The translations under genes and the position numbers were made by a program. Shown one piece after another: positions 4,006 through 13,347 of a DNA stretch of 21,696 bases; the first letter of the stretch is position 1, and every line of letters begins with the position of its first letter. A model generated the notes under the pieces. That model did not search any database and was not told where the DNA came from. It worked only from the letters and a program-made list of their open reading frames with translations. Source of the stretch: a virus; the IMG/VR virus record IMGVR_UViG_3300030520_000117, positions 1 through 21,696 of that record; one strand, 5' to 3'.

Positions 4006-4034
4006 ATATTAGGTATGTCCTAACATTTAATCAA
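4006..4034 (-). promoter_or_regulatory. Leftward early promoter (PL-like)
   Basis: Reading the minus strand, TTGATT (4034-4029) is followed by a 17-base spacer and TAATAT (4011-4006). Transcription would begin near 4000, giving a short leader before the first left-operon gene at 3968. The -35 is touched by one operator palindrome, and the spacer and -10 by another. Repressor bound there should block polymerase. Confidence 0.75.
4008..4024. promoter_or_regulatory. Operator OL1: TTAGG-N5-CCTAA palindrome
   Basis: TTAGG (4009-4013), TATGT, CCTAA (4019-4023) is a perfect five-base half-site palindrome centred on 4016. It covers the -10 and spacer of the leftward promoter. The same half-sites and the same 5-base spacing recur at four other places around the repressor gene. 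Confidence 0.82.
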
Positions 4035-4049
4035 TAGGTTAATCCTAAT
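4033..4049. promoter_or_regulatory. Operator OL2: palindrome variant
   Basis: AATAGG (4033-4038), TTAAT, CCTAAT (4044-4049) matches the operator pattern with one half-site base changed. It is centred on 4041, exactly 25 bp from OL1, and overlaps the -35 of the leftward promoter. The same variant half-site (AATAGG) occurs in the operator over the repressor start. Confidence 0.78.
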
Positions 4050-4082
4050 AAAAATCAACATGAAATTAAGGGTGGCCCGTTG

Positions 4083-4628
4083 TTAAGGCGCTTGTTTTTG
4101 ATCCACTTGGGCGATAAAGCGCTTGAGCGCGTTGTATGCCTTGCTATCTCGGCTGTCGTCGATGACGGCTCCATCCACGGTGCCGCTGGTCGTGCCTACG
4201 CGCACCCATACGCGATGCGCCATGGTGATGCGACGCACGACGTCCAGTGGGACGGCAAAGGTTTGCGTGGACTCGCGCAGCACGCCGCTGGGGTTGTCGT
4301 AATCGGTGGGCGTTGCGCCTGGCTGCAAATCCACGACGCTGCCGTCGATGTTGAGCAGCGCCGACTGAATGCCGAGGTATTCGGCGCCGCTCAACTGGAT
4401 GCGCAGGAATGCTCGATCGGGATGGGTTGATGACCACTGCGCACCGAGGTTGACGCAAGTTGTTGCGATTCTGCAGATGCCGCCATGCGGGTCGATATCA
4501 ATCACGCGCGAGCCATCAAAGCCGCTGCGTTGAACGATGGGCGCGTGGCCGCTAGTGGTGGTGCAGCCCGTCATGGCGAGCAAGAGCGCGAGCGCCAGCA
4601 GGCGCTGGATTGGTGGCGTGTGTTTCAT
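4083..4628 (-). CDS. Prophage lipoprotein in the repressor transcript
   Basis: The start at 4628 gives a classic lipoprotein signal: MKHTPPIQR, then a hydrophobic core LLALALLLAM, then TGC with the lipidated Cys at residue 22 (MTGC is a slightly unusual lipobox). The rest, 159 residues, is an extracytoplasmic domain with two further cysteines close together (GICRIATTC) that may form a disulphide, and a beta-rich pattern. The family is not recognised. It lies downstream of the repressor and a 67-residue gene on the same strand, with no other promoter or terminator evident, so it is probably expressed in the lysogen. Lambda's rexAB occupies this place, and lipoproteins from other prophages can block superinfection. 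The role here is inferred from position. Confidence 0.85.
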   Translation of the reverse strand: MKHTPPIQRLLALALLLAMTGCTTTSGHAPIVQRSGFDGSRVIDIDPHGGICRIATTCVNLGAQWSSTHPDRAFLRIQLSGAEYLGIQSALLNIDGSVVDLQPGATPTDYDNPSGVLRESTQTFAVPLDVVRRITMAHRVWVRVGTTSGTVDGAVIDDSRDSKAYNALKRFIAQVDQKQAP

Positions 4629-4680
4629 GGTTCCGTCCATTGGCCGCCGACGCCGGTGCGAACCGGCGCCGGTTGGCGTG

Positions 4681-4884
4681 TTATGGGGTTTCGATGGCCG
4701 CAAGGGCGCCGAGTAGCAGGATGCGCACGCGGGCTTGGGTGACTTCATTGGCGGCGCGGTAATTGAGGATCATGGCGACCTCGCGCGGCGAAAGTGCAGA
4801 CTCATTAGTTGCCGCGTTGTCGGGCGGTGGCTTGGGTTCGGTTTGGCTGTAGGTAGTTAACCTGGCATCTTCTGATTTGTGCAT
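4681..4884 (-). CDS. 67-residue protein between repressor and lipoprotein
   Basis: The ATG at 4884 is the only good start; an extension to 4920 would need TTG. The N-terminal half is polar and Pro/Asn-rich, and the C-terminal half (ALSPREVAMILNYRAANEVTQARVRILLLGALAAIE) looks like two helices, the second hydrophobic. The family is not recognised. It follows the repressor by about 85 bases and precedes the lipoprotein by 52, on the same strand, so it should share the repressor transcript. It could be a small regulator or partner of the repressor. Without homologues its reality is moderately supported only. Confidence 0.58.
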   Translation of the reverse strand: MHKSEDARLTTYSQTEPKPPPDNAATNESALSPREVAMILNYRAANEVTQARVRILLLGALAAIETP

Positions 4885-4947
4885 ACGGTCACTGGTTTCC
4901 GCCCTGTTGGAAGCGGTCAATAGTGGGCCGTAAGAAGTTACGTTTCA

Positions 4948-4966
4948 ACCGTCGAGCGTTGACGGT
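4948..4966. repeat. Hairpin just after the repressor stop
   Basis: ACCGTC (4948-4953) and GACGGT (4961-4966) form a perfect six-base stem with a seven-base loop, four bases downstream of the repressor stop codon on the minus strand. No T-run follows in that direction. It could act as a weak attenuator or RNA stabiliser between the repressor and the downstream genes. Confidence 0.4.
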
Positions 4967-4969
4967 CTG

Positions 4970-5398
4970 CTATTTTTTACGGGTTGCGCGGGCCTTTGCT
5001 GCAGGCTCCAGCGCCTTGTCGACCAGATCCTGCAGACCTTCCTCCGACATGCGGTAATGGCGCACCAGCGCAAGCTCACGAGGGGTAAGTACGAGCGGCG
5101 GCATGTCGACATAAGGGCCACCGTCGTCGGCATGCTGTGCCGTGTCGCGCTTGGGCAACTGGCCGAAGTACAGCCATTCAAAGCGCACGCTGTAATCGGC
5201 AGCCAGGAGGCGCGCGCGTTCAGGCGATGGCATATGGGTGCCGTTGAGCCATGCGTTGGCGGTGACCACACTGGTCTTGTGGCGCTTGGCGAGGCCGGTG
5301 CCGGCGCCGCGTCCGGTGTTATGGCCCACATCGGTCATGGCCTCTTTAAGGCGCTGGGCGAAATCGTGTGAATCGTGTGCTGGCGGGTGAATAGGCAT
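4970..5398 (-). CDS. Phage repressor (CI-like, HTH only)
   Basis: This is a 142-residue Cro/CI (XRE) family repressor. The HTH region runs about residues 12-79: FAQRLKEAM, then GTGLAKRHKTSVVTANAWLNGTHMPSPERARLLAADYSV, ending in the family hallmark FEWLYFG. The C-terminal 60 residues are short and helical and contain no S24/LexA-type Ser-Lys peptidase, so RecA-stimulated self-cleavage is not expected. It is divergent from the Cro-like gene, with three operator palindromes between and one covering its own start codon, which suggests autoregulation. Its targets should be these and the two palindromes at 4008-4049. The assignment as the lysogeny repressor rests on fold plus this arrangement. Confidence 0.88.
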   Translation of the reverse strand: MPIHPPAHDSHDFAQRLKEAMTDVGHNTGRGAGTGLAKRHKTSVVTANAWLNGTHMPSPERARLLAADYSVRFEWLYFGQLPKRDTAQHADDGGPYVDMPPLVLTPRELALVRHYRMSEEGLQDLVDKALEPAAKARATRKK

Positions 5399-5406
5399 GA
5401 CCTAAA
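5390..5406. promoter_or_regulatory. Operator OR3 over the repressor start codon
   Basis: AATAGG (5390-5395), CATGA, CCTAAA (5401-5406) is centred on 5398. The CAT in the spacer is the complement of the repressor's ATG. Bound protein would therefore sit on the repressor's translation start and block its transcription. Confidence 0.75.
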
Positions 5407-5420
5407 TTGTCCCTGATTTG

Positions 5421-5426
5421 ATATTA
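5421..5426 (-). promoter_or_regulatory. Possible -10 of the repressor promoter (PRM-like)
   Basis: On the minus strand 5426-5421 reads TAATAT, identical to the -10 of the leftward early promoter. No good -35 lies 16-18 bases upstream (AT-only sequence), as is usual for a promoter needing activation by its own repressor. Transcription would begin about 15 bases before the repressor ATG. Confidence 0.5.
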
Positions 5427-5439
5427 GGCTCGCCTTGTT
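5423..5439. promoter_or_regulatory. Operator OR2: degenerate palindrome
   Basis: A perfect left half-site ATTAGG (5423-5428) is followed by CTCGC and a poor right half-site CTTGTT. It is centred on 5431, exactly 25 bp from OR1, the same distance as between OL1 and OL2. The spacing supports it despite the weak half; it may be filled cooperatively. Confidence 0.6.
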
Positions 5440-5467
5440 GACATATTATTAGGTCAAACCTAATAAT
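5438..5467 (+). promoter_or_regulatory. Rightward early promoter (PR-like)
   Basis: A perfect TTGACA -35 (5438-5443) is followed after 18 bases by AATAAT (5462-5467), or after 17 by TAATAA. The start point would fall near 5474, so the Cro-like mRNA would have almost no leader before its ATG at 5477. The strongest operator overlaps the spacer and the -10. Confidence 0.8.
5445..5467. promoter_or_regulatory. Operator OR1: 9-base half-site perfect palindrome
   Basis: ATTATTAGG (5445-5453), TCAAA, CCTAATAAT (5459-5467) is a perfect palindrome with nine-base arms, centred on 5456. It is the best of the five operator copies and lies between the -35 and the end of the -10 of the rightward promoter, so occupancy should shut off the Cro-replication operon. 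Confidence 0.88.
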
Positions 5468-5476
5468 AGGGTCACT

Positions 5477-5761
5477 ATGAATAACGAAGCCCTCGACAAA
5501 GCATGCGACGCGATGGGGAGCCAAGAGGCGCTTGCAAAGGCGCTGTACATCCGTTCGCCGTCTATCTCTGAATGGCGCAAACGCAAGCGAGTGCCTGCAG
5601 GGCGTTGCCGCGACATAGAAAAGGTGACGGGCGGGCAGGTAACACGCCATGACCTTCGCCCGGATCTCTACGGCGAGCAGGTAACGCGCCATGACCTTCG
5701 CCTGGATCTCCACAACGAGGTATCCAGCGACGCAGAAGCGTTGGAGCAGCAAGCGGCTTGA
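5477..5761 (+). CDS. Cro-like (YdaS-type) regulator with duplicated C-terminus
   Basis: This is a 94-residue DNA-binding protein. Residues 1-60 match the YdaS/Cro phage regulator pattern: a helix (EALDKACDAMG), the HTH SQEALAKALYIRSPSISEWRKRKRVP, and RCRDIEKVTGGQVTRHDLRPDLY. Family members normally end soon after one VTR(Y/H)DLRPD signature. Here the signature is repeated as GEQVTRHDLRLDLH, encoded by a 42-bp tandem duplication. As the first gene of the rightward operon, divergent from the repressor, it should act as Cro or as an anti-repressor. With the predicted start of transcription only about three bases upstream, it may be translated as a leaderless mRNA. AGGG at 5468-5471 would help only if transcription begins earlier. 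Confidence 0.9.
   Translation: MNNEALDKACDAMGSQEALAKALYIRSPSISEWRKRKRVPAGRCRDIEKVTGGQVTRHDLRPDLYGEQVTRHDLRLDLHNEVSSDAEALEQQAA
5636..5719 (+). repeat. 42-bp in-frame tandem duplication inside the Cro-like gene
   Basis: Unit 1 is 5636-5677 and unit 2 is 5678-5719, 37 of 42 bases identical. The unit is exactly 14 codons, so the frame is kept. Of the five differences, one is silent (ACA/ACG) and the others change Pro to Leu, Tyr to His and Gly to Asn. Confidence 0.93.
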
Positions 5762-10359: not shown

Positions 10360-12344
10360 TGTTTGATGCGCATCCGCTCGACGTGGTGCTTACCGACGGC
10401 AACGAGATCGTCTGTGGAAGCTGGAGCCGCGGCTGGACCATGCCCGAACCCATCACGCTGAGTGATTGGGCAGACCGCTACCGCAAGCTGCCGAAGGAAG
10501 GCTCCAGCGAAGCCGGCGACTGGTACACCAGCCGCATGCCGTTCCTGCGCGAGATCATGGATTGCTTGCATCGCGAATCCAGAGTGCGCGAAATCACTCT
10601 CAAGAAATCCACGCAGGTCGGCGGTACCGAGGTTGGCATCAACTGGCTCGGCTACATCATCGAGCACGCGCCGGCACCGGTCATGTACGTGTTACCCACC
10701 ATCGACATCGCGCGCAAGTTCAGCGAGCAACGCCTTACTCCAGCTATCAACCTCATGCCGGTGTTGCAGGAGCGCATTCCGCCCGCACGCAGTCGCGATG
10801 GTGGCAATACCACGCTGATGAAGCGGTTCCCCGGCGGTGTGCTGGTGCTGAGCGGAGCCAATAGCTCGGCGTCACTGGCTTCAATGCCGATGATGTATTT
10901 GATCCTTGATGAGCTCTCGAAATACCCGACCAATCTGGATGACCAAGGCGGCGCCGAACAGCAAGCCCTGGCCCGTACATCGTCATTTACCCGCCGGAAA
11001 ATCCTGCGCATCAGCTCATGCACCATCAAAGATGCGTGCGCCATCAGCACGGCCTTCGATGCGGGCGATCAGAGCTATCTGTATTTGCCATGCCCGCATT
11101 GCGCGCACAAGCAAGTGCTGGTGATCGACCAGCTCACCGACGATGGCCAGTTCGTGTGTATCCATTGCGGCAAGCTCGTCGAGGAGCATCACAAAACCCG
11201 CATGCTGGAAGCGGGCGAATGGATCGCAAAGCACCCCGAGCGCAGTCACTTCCATCGCAGCTTCGCGATCTGGTCAGCTTTTGCTGCTGTCGGCCTGGGC
11301 TATACCTGGCGCGAAATTGCGGCCATGCGCGTGGAGACTCGGAAAGATCCCGCGAAAGAGGTGGTCTTCGTCAACACCATTCTCGGCGAAGCCTACGAAG
11401 GTGCCAGCCAGAAGGTCGAGGCCAATGACGCGCAGCAACGCGCGGCGAAGTGGTTGCGCCGCACGGTGCCACGTGGCGGCTTTATCCTTACGGCTGGCGT
11501 CGATGTGCAGGTCAATCGCTTCGCCGTGATCACCATTGCGTGGGGTCGCAATGAGCAGGCGTTCGTGGTCGATTATGTCGAACTACCCGCTGATCCGACG
11601 CGCAAGGAAGATTGGGACATCCTATGGGACTTCCTCGCCGAGCCTGTGATCAACGCGGCCGGCATCACCCTGCACATCAGCGCTGTCGCCGTCGACTCGG
11701 GCAACTGGACGCAGGAGGTCTACAACGCCGTGCGCCCTAGGCAGTCGCAGGGTGTCATGGCCATCAAGGGCAGCAAGGATGCCGCGCGTCCCATCATCGG
11801 CCGCGCCAGCAAGCAGGAGGTCGACAAGAGCGGACGCATTCAGCGCAGGGGCGTCAATCTGTGGATCATCGGTGTCAATTCGGCCAAGACCACGCTCATG
11901 CAGCGGTTGCTTGGTGATACCGATCGCGAGGAAGAAAATCGCCTGATTCATTTTCCAGCCGATCTGCCCGATGACTTCTACACCATGCTCACGGCCGAAC
12001 GTTTCGACTTAACCGCCAAGCGTTGGCTCAAGAAACAAGGAGCCCGCAATGAAGCGCTGGATACGTTCGTCTATGCCTACGCAGCAGCGCTCAGCCCGAG
12101 TGTGCGCATCCACGTCAAACGCGAGGCGGACTGGGCCGCGCTGGAGGCCAAGCTGGAACCGCCTACTGATGACCTGTTCACTGCACCTGTGGGGCGCGAA
12201 GAAAAAAAGGGGCCTGATAAGGGACTGCAAATAGACGTCCAGACGTCCGCAGTTCCACGTGAAACGGCTGACCGATCAGCATCTTCACCAGCGCCACGCA
12301 CTAATAACCCCTTTGCATCTTCCGACTGGTTGGACCGCCGATGA
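10359..12344 (+). CDS. Terminase large subunit (lambda gpA family)
   Basis: This is a 661-residue packaging motor and nuclease. The ATPase domain has the deviant Walker A KSTQVGGTE (about residues 83-91) and the Walker B LILDEL (about 182-187). A four-cysteine zinc ribbon, CPHC...CIHC (about 245-270), follows. The nuclease half has conserved acidic residues in AGVDVQ, AVDSGN and the C-terminal EALDTFVYAYAA. The gpA family cuts at cos sites, which implies cos packaging. The start is ATG 10359, seven bases after AGGAGG (10346-10351); a GTG at 10356 is one codon upstream. It overlaps the small subunit stop (TGATG) and the following gene (ATGA). Confidence 0.95.
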   Translation: MFDAHPLDVVLTDGNEIVCGSWSRGWTMPEPITLSDWADRYRKLPKEGSSEAGDWYTSRMPFLREIMDCLHRESRVREITLKKSTQVGGTEVGINWLGYIIEHAPAPVMYVLPTIDIARKFSEQRLTPAINLMPVLQERIPPARSRDGGNTTLMKRFPGGVLVLSGANSSASLASMPMMYLILDELSKYPTNLDDQGGAEQQALARTSSFTRRKILRISSCTIKDACAISTAFDAGDQSYLYLPCPHCAHKQVLVIDQLTDDGQFVCIHCGKLVEEHHKTRMLEAGEWIAKHPERSHFHRSFAIWSAFAAVGLGYTWREIAAMRVETRKDPAKEVVFVNTILGEAYEGASQKVEANDAQQRAAKWLRRTVPRGGFILTAGVDVQVNRFAVITIAWGRNEQAFVVDYVELPADPTRKEDWDILWDFLAEPVINAAGITLHISAVAVDSGNWTQEVYNAVRPRQSQGVMAIKGSKDAARPIIGRASKQEVDKSGRIQRRGVNLWIIGVNSAKTTLMQRLLGDTDREEENRLIHFPADLPDDFYTMLTAERFDLTAKRWLKKQGARNEALDTFVYAYAAALSPSVRIHVKREADWAALEAKLEPPTDDLFTAPVGREEKKGPDKGLQIDVQTSAVPRETADRSASSPAPRTNNPFASSDWLDRR

Positions 12345-12628
12345 ATGAGCAGATCAATGTTGCCGAAGCGCTGCAAGATGAGCTGGCTGCCGCCCTGCAG
12401 GAATCGCTAGGCCTGGGATTCGATGAGGCCAGCCGGTACGCAGCACCGGTGGTGCGGTACCTGCAGCAGCAGTACGGCGGCGACGAGCTATACATTCCGC
12501 AGCCCTACATGCGTCGAAACGTTGACGACATCCTCGCCGCGCGGAAGGCCGGCCAGCCGATCAAGAAAATACTGAAGGATTTCGCTATCAGCAGGCGAAC
12601 CTACTATCGCCTGCTCAGTCAGTTGTGA
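12341..12628 (+). CDS. Mor-family transcription activator
   Basis: This is a 95-residue protein with a dimerisation helical region (residues 5-40), then QYGGDELYIPQPYMRRN, the strand-turn typical of the Mor/C family. A C-terminal HTH follows (about 65-92, ILAARKAGQPIKKILKDFAISRRTYYRLLSQ). In phage Mu, Mor activates middle transcription. Here the gene overlaps the large terminase by an ATGA and precedes the moron cassette. It may activate late gene transcription of the head genes beyond, but the target is not visible. The length is close to that of known Mor-like proteins (about 100-130). Confidence 0.85.
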   Translation: MNEQINVAEALQDELAAALQESLGLGFDEASRYAAPVVRYLQQQYGGDELYIPQPYMRRNVDDILAARKAGQPIKKILKDFAISRRTYYRLLSQL

Positions 12629-12706: not shown

Positions 12707-12937
12707 CTATTTAAAGGTGCGCTTGAGCATTTTTGATATTTGTTCTTTAGCGTAGTCAACAGCAGAGGCCCTCCCTTCTTCGGCCGCTACCTGAATCACA
12801 GAGTCATAATCGTTTAGCTCGCCACACTCTTGGCACTTGAGCAGATCGCCTGATTCGTATGTGTTCTCGGTATCGCCTTTTAAGTCACAGCCGCAGAACA
12901 AGCACTTCAGTGTGATATGGAATTCTTTGTTTTCCAT
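12707..12937 (-). CDS. Small zinc-ribbon protein of a moron operon
   Basis: This is a 76-residue acidic protein. Two CxxC pairs (CLFC at about 12-15 and CQEC at about 36-39) form a likely zinc ribbon. They are followed by NDYDSVIQVAAEEGRASAVDYAKEQISKMLKR, a helical tail. Similar small zinc ribbons ending this way occur in prophages without a known role. The ATG at 12937 overlaps the stop of the gene upstream (TGATG), so translation is coupled. The gene is leftward within a rightward late operon, and its base composition is more AT-rich than its neighbours. Both are signs of a separately acquired lysogen-expressed gene. Confidence 0.82.
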   Translation of the reverse strand: MENKEFHITLKCLFCGCDLKGDTENTYESGDLLKCQECGELNDYDSVIQVAAEEGRASAVDYAKEQISKMLKRTFK

Positions 12938-13347
12938 CACCTGACTCCCAAGAAACTGAAAACAAACGTGGCTAAGGCAACGAGAAAACCGAGAAGAACA
13001 AACCATCCCTTGTGGTCTTCAATGTAGTCGGACACTTTCTTGGGCTTTGTGCGTGAATCTTTTATCTCTACAGCTCTTGCTCTTGATCGTGCTGCTCCCA
13101 CTCCTTTGGATGTAGCACCGAGGTATCTGTATTTTTCGCCTATTGATTTATGGGAGACCCACTCATTCGCGATGCACCTGTCAACTGCTTTTTCTAGGTC
13201 ACTTATAGAGTAGTCGGTCCCATGTTTTGCATTGATTTCATCTGCGAGCTTTTGGTCAACATCGAACCTAACCAAGCTCGCGGTTAGACCCTGGGCTTCC
13301 ATGTAATCAATCACGTTACCTAGGATTTTGAATTCCGGCACAGTCAT
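12937..13347 (-). CDS. Tail-anchored winged-helix-like membrane protein of a moron operon
   Basis: This is a 136-residue protein. Residues about 1-75 look like a winged helix (KILGNVIDYMEAQG, then ISDLEKAVDRCIANEWVSHKSIGEKYRYLGATSKGVGAARSR, the usual helix plus beta-wing order). A basic linker (RTKPKKVSDYIEDHKG) leads to one C-terminal hydrophobic helix (WFVLLGFLVALATFVFSFLG) ending in VR, so the protein is predicted to be tail-anchored with the domain in the cytoplasm. It is the first gene of a two-gene leftward transcript. The function is not known. Membrane-anchored cytoplasmic sensors of this shape are good candidates for phage exclusion, but this is inference. Confidence 0.82.
   Translation of the reverse strand: MTVPEFKILGNVIDYMEAQGLTASLVRFDVDQKLADEINAKHGTDYSISDLEKAVDRCIANEWVSHKSIGEKYRYLGATSKGVGAARSRARAVEIKDSRTKPKKVSDYIEDHKGWFVLLGFLVALATFVFSFLGVR

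Follow-up and report, generated by a model that had tools for sequence, protein, structure and literature searches.

Organisation of the immunity region

The window (the whole stretch of viral DNA that was analysed, 21,696 bases) carries a repressor gene and a Cro-like gene in divergent orientation, together with putative promoters and palindromic sites of the form TTAGG-N5-CCTAA, arranged as follows.

4006 to 4034, minus strand: PL, predicted leftward early promoter, TTGATT-17-TAATAT, fused with OL1 and OL2; the module is also found in relatives.
4009 to 4023: OL1, TTAGGTATGTCCTAA, a perfect palindrome whose minus-strand right half lies within the PL −10 TAATAT.
4034 to 4048: OL2, ATAGGTTAATCCTAA, one mismatch; its minus-strand end CCTAT adjoins the PL −35 TTGATT.
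4083 to 4628, minus strand: gene for a 181-aa protein in which LLAMTGC resembles a lipobox signal; like lambda rexAB, it is flanked by OL and the repressor.
4681 to 4884, minus strand: 67-aa open reading frame downstream of the repressor, found also in the related locus L011.
4970 to 5398, minus strand: prophage repressor (CI analogue), 142 aa, with a five-helix HTH domain and without an S24 peptidase domain.
5391 to 5405: OR3, ATAGGCATGACCTAA, one mismatch; its centre is base 5398, where the repressor ATG has its A.
5398 to 5412, minus strand: putative PRM start region, with a −10-like GACAAT and no clear −35, proposed on the model of lambda cI and paaR2.
5424 to 5438: OR2, TTAGGCTCGCCTTGT, three mismatches; one good half, and a degenerate half adjoining the PR −35.
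5438 to 5467, plus strand: PR, predicted rightward early promoter, TTGACA-17/18-TAATAA(T).
5449 to 5463: OR1, TTAGGTCAAACCTAA, a perfect palindrome in the PR spacer, with its right half within the −10.
5477 to 5761, plus strand: Cro analogue, 94 aa, of the YdaS / P22-Cro family.

The 181-aa protein matched phrog_7678, a family of unknown function. In relatives the same slot holds small membrane or secreted proteins or a DUF450 protein (L037 type), or is empty, and because its contents vary in this way it resembles a lysogenic cargo slot like that of lambda rexAB. A PADLOC search of the cargo returned no defence match. Further along the window, two small minus-strand open reading frames (99 and 136 aa; 12707-13347), also without a PADLOC match, break the run of rightward late genes and are possible moron cargo, and a 95-aa late-region protein (12341-12628, plus strand) is weakly similar to PHROG late transcriptional activator families (E = 4e-4).

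Probable operator sites and promoters

Five copies of the palindrome in two clusters had been proposed in the preliminary description, and four of them, two exact and two with one mismatch, exceed what is expected by chance. We compared the window with 100 randomised versions of it in which dinucleotides were kept; sites with no more than one mismatch averaged 0.06 per shuffle, and four were seen in none of the 100. Sites with three mismatches, the class to which OR2 belongs, occur in the window at chance level (24 observed versus 27.7 expected), and the fifth copy is credible because relatives keep the site, conservation being what supports it. Measured centre to centre, OL1 and OL2 are 25 bp apart, OR1 and OR2 are also 25 bp apart, and OR2 and OR3 are separated by 33 bp, which bears out the equal spacing of the two pairs noted at the outset; the start-to-start distance from OL1 to OR1 is 1440 bp, in agreement with the earlier estimate of about 1.4 kb between the clusters.

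A leftward promoter had likewise been placed under the left cluster, and a match to one is present there as sequence. Read on the minus strand, TTAGGATTAACCTATTGATTAAATGTTAGGACATACCTAATATC contains OL2, a −35 element, a 17-bp spacer and the right half of OL1 embedded in the −10, and PR, TTAGGCTCGCCTTGTTGACATATTATTAGGTCAAACCTAATAAT, has an identical layout. The form common to these modules is TTAGG-N5-CCTA-TTGA(C)-N-TTAGG-N5-CCTAAtat. The 25-bp spacing follows from this arrangement, because OR2 and OL2 adjoin the −35 while the right halves of OR1 and OL1 form the −10, and fusion of operators with promoters, rather than cooperativity alone, best explains why the spacing is the same on both sides.

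Repressor, putative PRM and Cro

The 142-aa repressor showed a weak match to HTH_3 and none to NCBIfam, including the RacR family NF049929. In its structural model a high-confidence five-helix HTH domain is joined through a loose linker to a helix at the C-terminus. The nearest folds are HTH domains of phage and XRE type, among them lambda CI, P22 c2 and TP901-1 CI, none of which reached E = 0.001. The C-terminal S24 peptidase domain is absent from this protein and present in the relatives L022, L041, L110 and L053. Since the domain is lacking, RecA-driven cleavage is probably not the induction route, and self-cleavage of this repressor appears unlikely from its sequence; an antirepressor is a plausible alternative inducer, no candidate having been identified.

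GACAAT occupies positions −13 to −8 relative to the repressor ATG, and relatives have similar elements at about the same place. From this position a leaderless mRNA is predicted, and by analogy the repressor transcript of the window is probably leaderless, as is the lambda cI mRNA. The distance from OR2 to the predicted start of PRM is 33 bp, against about 42 bp for OR2 of lambda; lambda-style activation of PRM therefore does not simply carry over.

The Cro analogue scored 82.7 bits against Pfam YdaS (PF15943; cut-off 30) and also matched P22_Cro. A profile built from four sequences found solved Cro proteins, the best being 3bd1 (E = 7e-27), with 2pij (Pfl 6) at 7e-5, and an AlphaFold2 model of the window protein is entirely helical. 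The preliminary description had left this protein without a place among known types; it belongs to the YdaS / P22-Cro family, which has solved relatives. Within the gene (5634-5720) we also observed an internal near-repeat, GCAGGTAACACGCCATGACCTTCGCC / GCAGGTAACGCGCCATGACCTTCGCC, which makes the C-terminus longer than that of its relatives.

Conservation in related phages

We collected relatives by searching viral contigs with the repressor and Cro proteins. Phages whose repressors are 78%, 56% and 37% identical to that of the window each retain five sites at the same local spacing. Among relatives, OL and OR are 641 to 2974 bp apart, and the gene content of the OL-repressor interval also differs. 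A DNA scan for the OL pair, in which the pattern itself fixes the 25 bp, returned 114 stretches; their Cro proteins fall nearly all into one cluster, and their repressors into at least two main types, that of the window and one to which E. coli RacR belongs, besides small outliers. Counting near-identical records, OL1 and OL2 are 25 bp apart in 30/30 modules of the window type and 51/51 of the RacR type, and OR1-OR2 measures 24-27 bp across the fetched loci. Because the OL loci were partly fetched by the pattern, the independent evidence for the 25-bp OL spacing comes from the set fetched by protein.

The position of OR3 is conserved: in each of the 21 distinct window-type regions (one start codon corrected) its centre coincides with the A of the ATG that starts the repressor, and OR3 is centred there in RacR-type regions too, with 1-2 mismatches in most. 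The weak half of OR2 is itself a conserved feature of the window type; of 19 distinct PR modules, 18 have CCTG or CTTG there. The corresponding PL site reads CCTA in 17/17 (Fisher p = 4e-9 for PL against PR, ancestry ignored). RacR-type OR2 sites have CCTA in 20/20.

A profile comparison of the full-length repressor types aligned their S24-like regions and not the HTH, and the N-terminal domains were compared instead; between the window and RacR types these showed no detectable homology outside the core of the HTH (HHalign probability 20%). In both types one and the same HTH domain can be found joined to S24 or lacking it, the S24-bearing relatives named above being of the window type in three cases and of the RacR type in one (L053), a pattern that, judged from the sequences, suggests that the self-cleavage domain has been lost or exchanged repeatedly. 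Neither the repressor protein nor the DNA of the region had a match in the INPHARED phage collection. A scan of host genomes with the single window repressor sequence gave no matches, and an alignment query found two hosts with related prophages.

Specificity of the operator and covariation with Cro

We scanned the genomes of these two bacteria, a Rhodanobacter (4.1 Mb) and a Luteimonas (4.6 Mb), and all exact copies of TTAGG-N5-CCTAA lay inside the prophage immunity region, so that the confinement to the prophage for which the preliminary description proposed a genome scan was found in both. The full promoter-operator module, allowing at most one mismatch, occurred once in 233 Rhodanobacter-family genomes, in the related prophage of Rhodanobacter.

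Covariation of the half-site with the HTH had also been put forward as a check. Among loci retrieved solely by their Cro sequence, blind to the operator, TTAGG-type sites accompanied 15/17 Cro proteins with an SPSI(S/A)xW helix versus 0/46 other Cro proteins (p about 1e-12, ancestry ignored). The association held for the Cro helix; repressor types change under one operator. This ties the operator to the Cro recognition helix as an association, and either protein may be the one that sets it.

The two SPSI(S/A)xW exceptions have TTAGC-N5-GCTAA sites and a third repressor type. A scan for this sister operator returned one more SPSISGW Cro (L236) and Cro proteins of a different type, and three distinct Cro proteins (L158/L223, L159/L238 and L236) now combine SPSISGW with it. 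In the loci that carry it (L158, L159, L236, L218-L238) two sites lie 50 bp apart, beside either an SPSISGW Cro or an unrelated Cro type, and the repressors of L158 and L159 are different and longer. A one-residue code, with E/D versus G in the Cro helix specifying the half-site, was considered and rejected as a strict code because two G-bearing Cro proteins (L157/L110 and L051) keep TTAGG.

Proposed switch and alternatives

Taken together, these results make it very probable that the five sites are the operators of a repressor/Cro switch of the Rac/CP-933P kind, governing lysogeny in a temperate phage, with binding by the window's own proteins being predicted from that likeness. In such a switch the short HTH repressor and the YdaS-family Cro would compete for TTAGG-N5-CCTAA; repressor bound at the promoter-embedded pairs would shut PL and PR, and filling of OR3, by Cro first or by abundant repressor, would turn off the repressor's own promoter, PRM. 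Induction would be SOS-independent and proceed without RecA-driven cleavage. The order of site affinities and the PRM start given here are predictions.

Looping between OL and OR is possible on this plan. That OL and OR instead act separately, PL being simply a second repressed promoter, is somewhat less likely than not but a serious contender, and is compatible with the rest of the switch proposed here. The OL-OR distance has no fixed value across its 641 to 2974 bp, and the repressor is short, without the kind of C-terminal domain from which the higher-order assembly of lambda CI comes. On the other hand, the OL pair is always retained, and PaaR2, which is short as well, is reported to be octameric like CI (PMC8630535).

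A less probable reading, to which we give little weight, is that the palindromes are operators of Cro alone or of the repressor alone, the other protein reading different nearby sequences. It would account for a site that tracks the Cro recognition helix while repressor types change, and in CP-933P the exact PaaR2 and YdaS sites are not resolved (PMC8630535). However, RacR, a repressor, binds TTAGGC/GCCTAA in K-12 (PMC5700373), the sites occupy PL, PR and the start of the repressor gene, all places on which a repressor has to act, and no second conserved palindrome stands out in intergenic alignments. Chance or compositional palindromes of AT-rich promoter DNA, for which it can be said that the −10 TAATAT and the half-site CCTAA have letters in common, are excluded for practical purposes by the shuffles, the form of the modules, the genome scans and the conservation across diverged phages.

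Implications of a shared operator

In lambda-type immunity regions, operator and repressor are usually thought to diversify together. We tentatively raise the possibility, which we hold to be less likely than its opposite, that TTAGG-N5-CCTAA has stayed almost unchanged across phages of Enterobacteriaceae and of Xanthomonadales-type hosts while the repressor was swapped between families, with or without S24. If so, a single cross-immunity group would unite phages that otherwise share almost no sequence, and it would be the YdaS-type Cro, not the repressor, that keeps the operator constant. What is new here is the breadth over which operator and geometry are conserved while the repressor type changes: one word is fused to both early promoters and to the repressor start codon, and is kept through changes of repressor family and of S24. 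This constancy raises a direct question, namely whether the immunity given by one repressor extends to a phage whose repressor is unrelated.

Comparison with known systems

In lambda, one palindrome is repeated in two clusters over PL and PR/PRM, and the gene order is early left genes, OL, cargo, repressor, OR, cro. The window has two such clusters over PL and PR/PRM and the same gene order. Its repressor and Cro genes point away from each other on either side of an OR that has three sites (OR2 half-degenerate) and covers PR, and a second cluster, OL, kept in relatives, covers a leftward early promoter. It differs from lambda in its operator, repressor and Cro sequences, in the placement of OR3 on the start codon, in the lack of S24 and in the 33-bp OR2-OR3 distance. 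Both the geometry, conserved in many relatives, and the literature on Rac and CP-933P uphold the lambda-like OL/OR plan first suggested for this DNA.

The operator, which the preliminary description did not recognise, is the RacR operator word of E. coli Rac (PMC5700373), and it is not new because it is already known from Rac. Between racR and ydaS, E. coli K-12 has three GCCTAA/TTAGGC variants, and purified RacR binds this intergenic DNA in three complexes (PMC5700373). We located the K-12 OR-side sites at starts 1420270, 1420295 and 1420321 of NC_000913.3, and a left pair 25 bp apart (starts about 1419629 and 1419654) just downstream of racR, at 4130-4169 of our locus L217 (NC_000913.3 about 1419629-1419668). 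By its sequence this pair may be the left operator of Rac; the portion of PMC5700373 available contained no mention of it. The poorly studied E. coli Rac switch is in this way placed in a wide family. Like the window, Rac has the TTAGGC/GCCTAA word, a Cro of the YdaS family, repressor and cro genes that diverge, two left sites spaced by 25 bp and, in K-12, a degenerate site on the repressor ATG. The two differ in the repressor, which in Rac belongs to the RacR family (an NCBIfam equivalog) and in the window lies outside it. They differ also in the half-site, which is 6 bp (TTAGGC) in the RacR type; the window type shares 5 bp of it, the sixth base is not fixed and the centres vary.

The paaR2-ydaS-ydaT region of E. 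coli O157:H7 CP-933P resembles the window in its OL/OR plan, its PL, PR and PRM promoters, its short repressor, YdaS as Cro, and cargo between OL and the repressor. There, PaaR2 and YdaS protect overlapping DNA and repress PL and PR, PaaR2 at low level activates PRM, 5′ RACE showed paaR2 mRNA to be leaderless, and the short PaaR2 is the repressor for which CI-like octamers were reported (PMC8630535). YdaS and YdaT have been argued by Jobling to be analogues of Cro and CII (PMC5917428). CP-933P differs in its operator word, which consists of 18-bp inverted repeats (consensus GTTTAGTAA), and in having three OL sites and toxin-antitoxin cargo. With the operator of Rac and a YdaS-family Cro, and with a repressor from outside the RacR family, the window is a Rac/CP-933P (RacR-YdaS)-type immunity region with another repressor.
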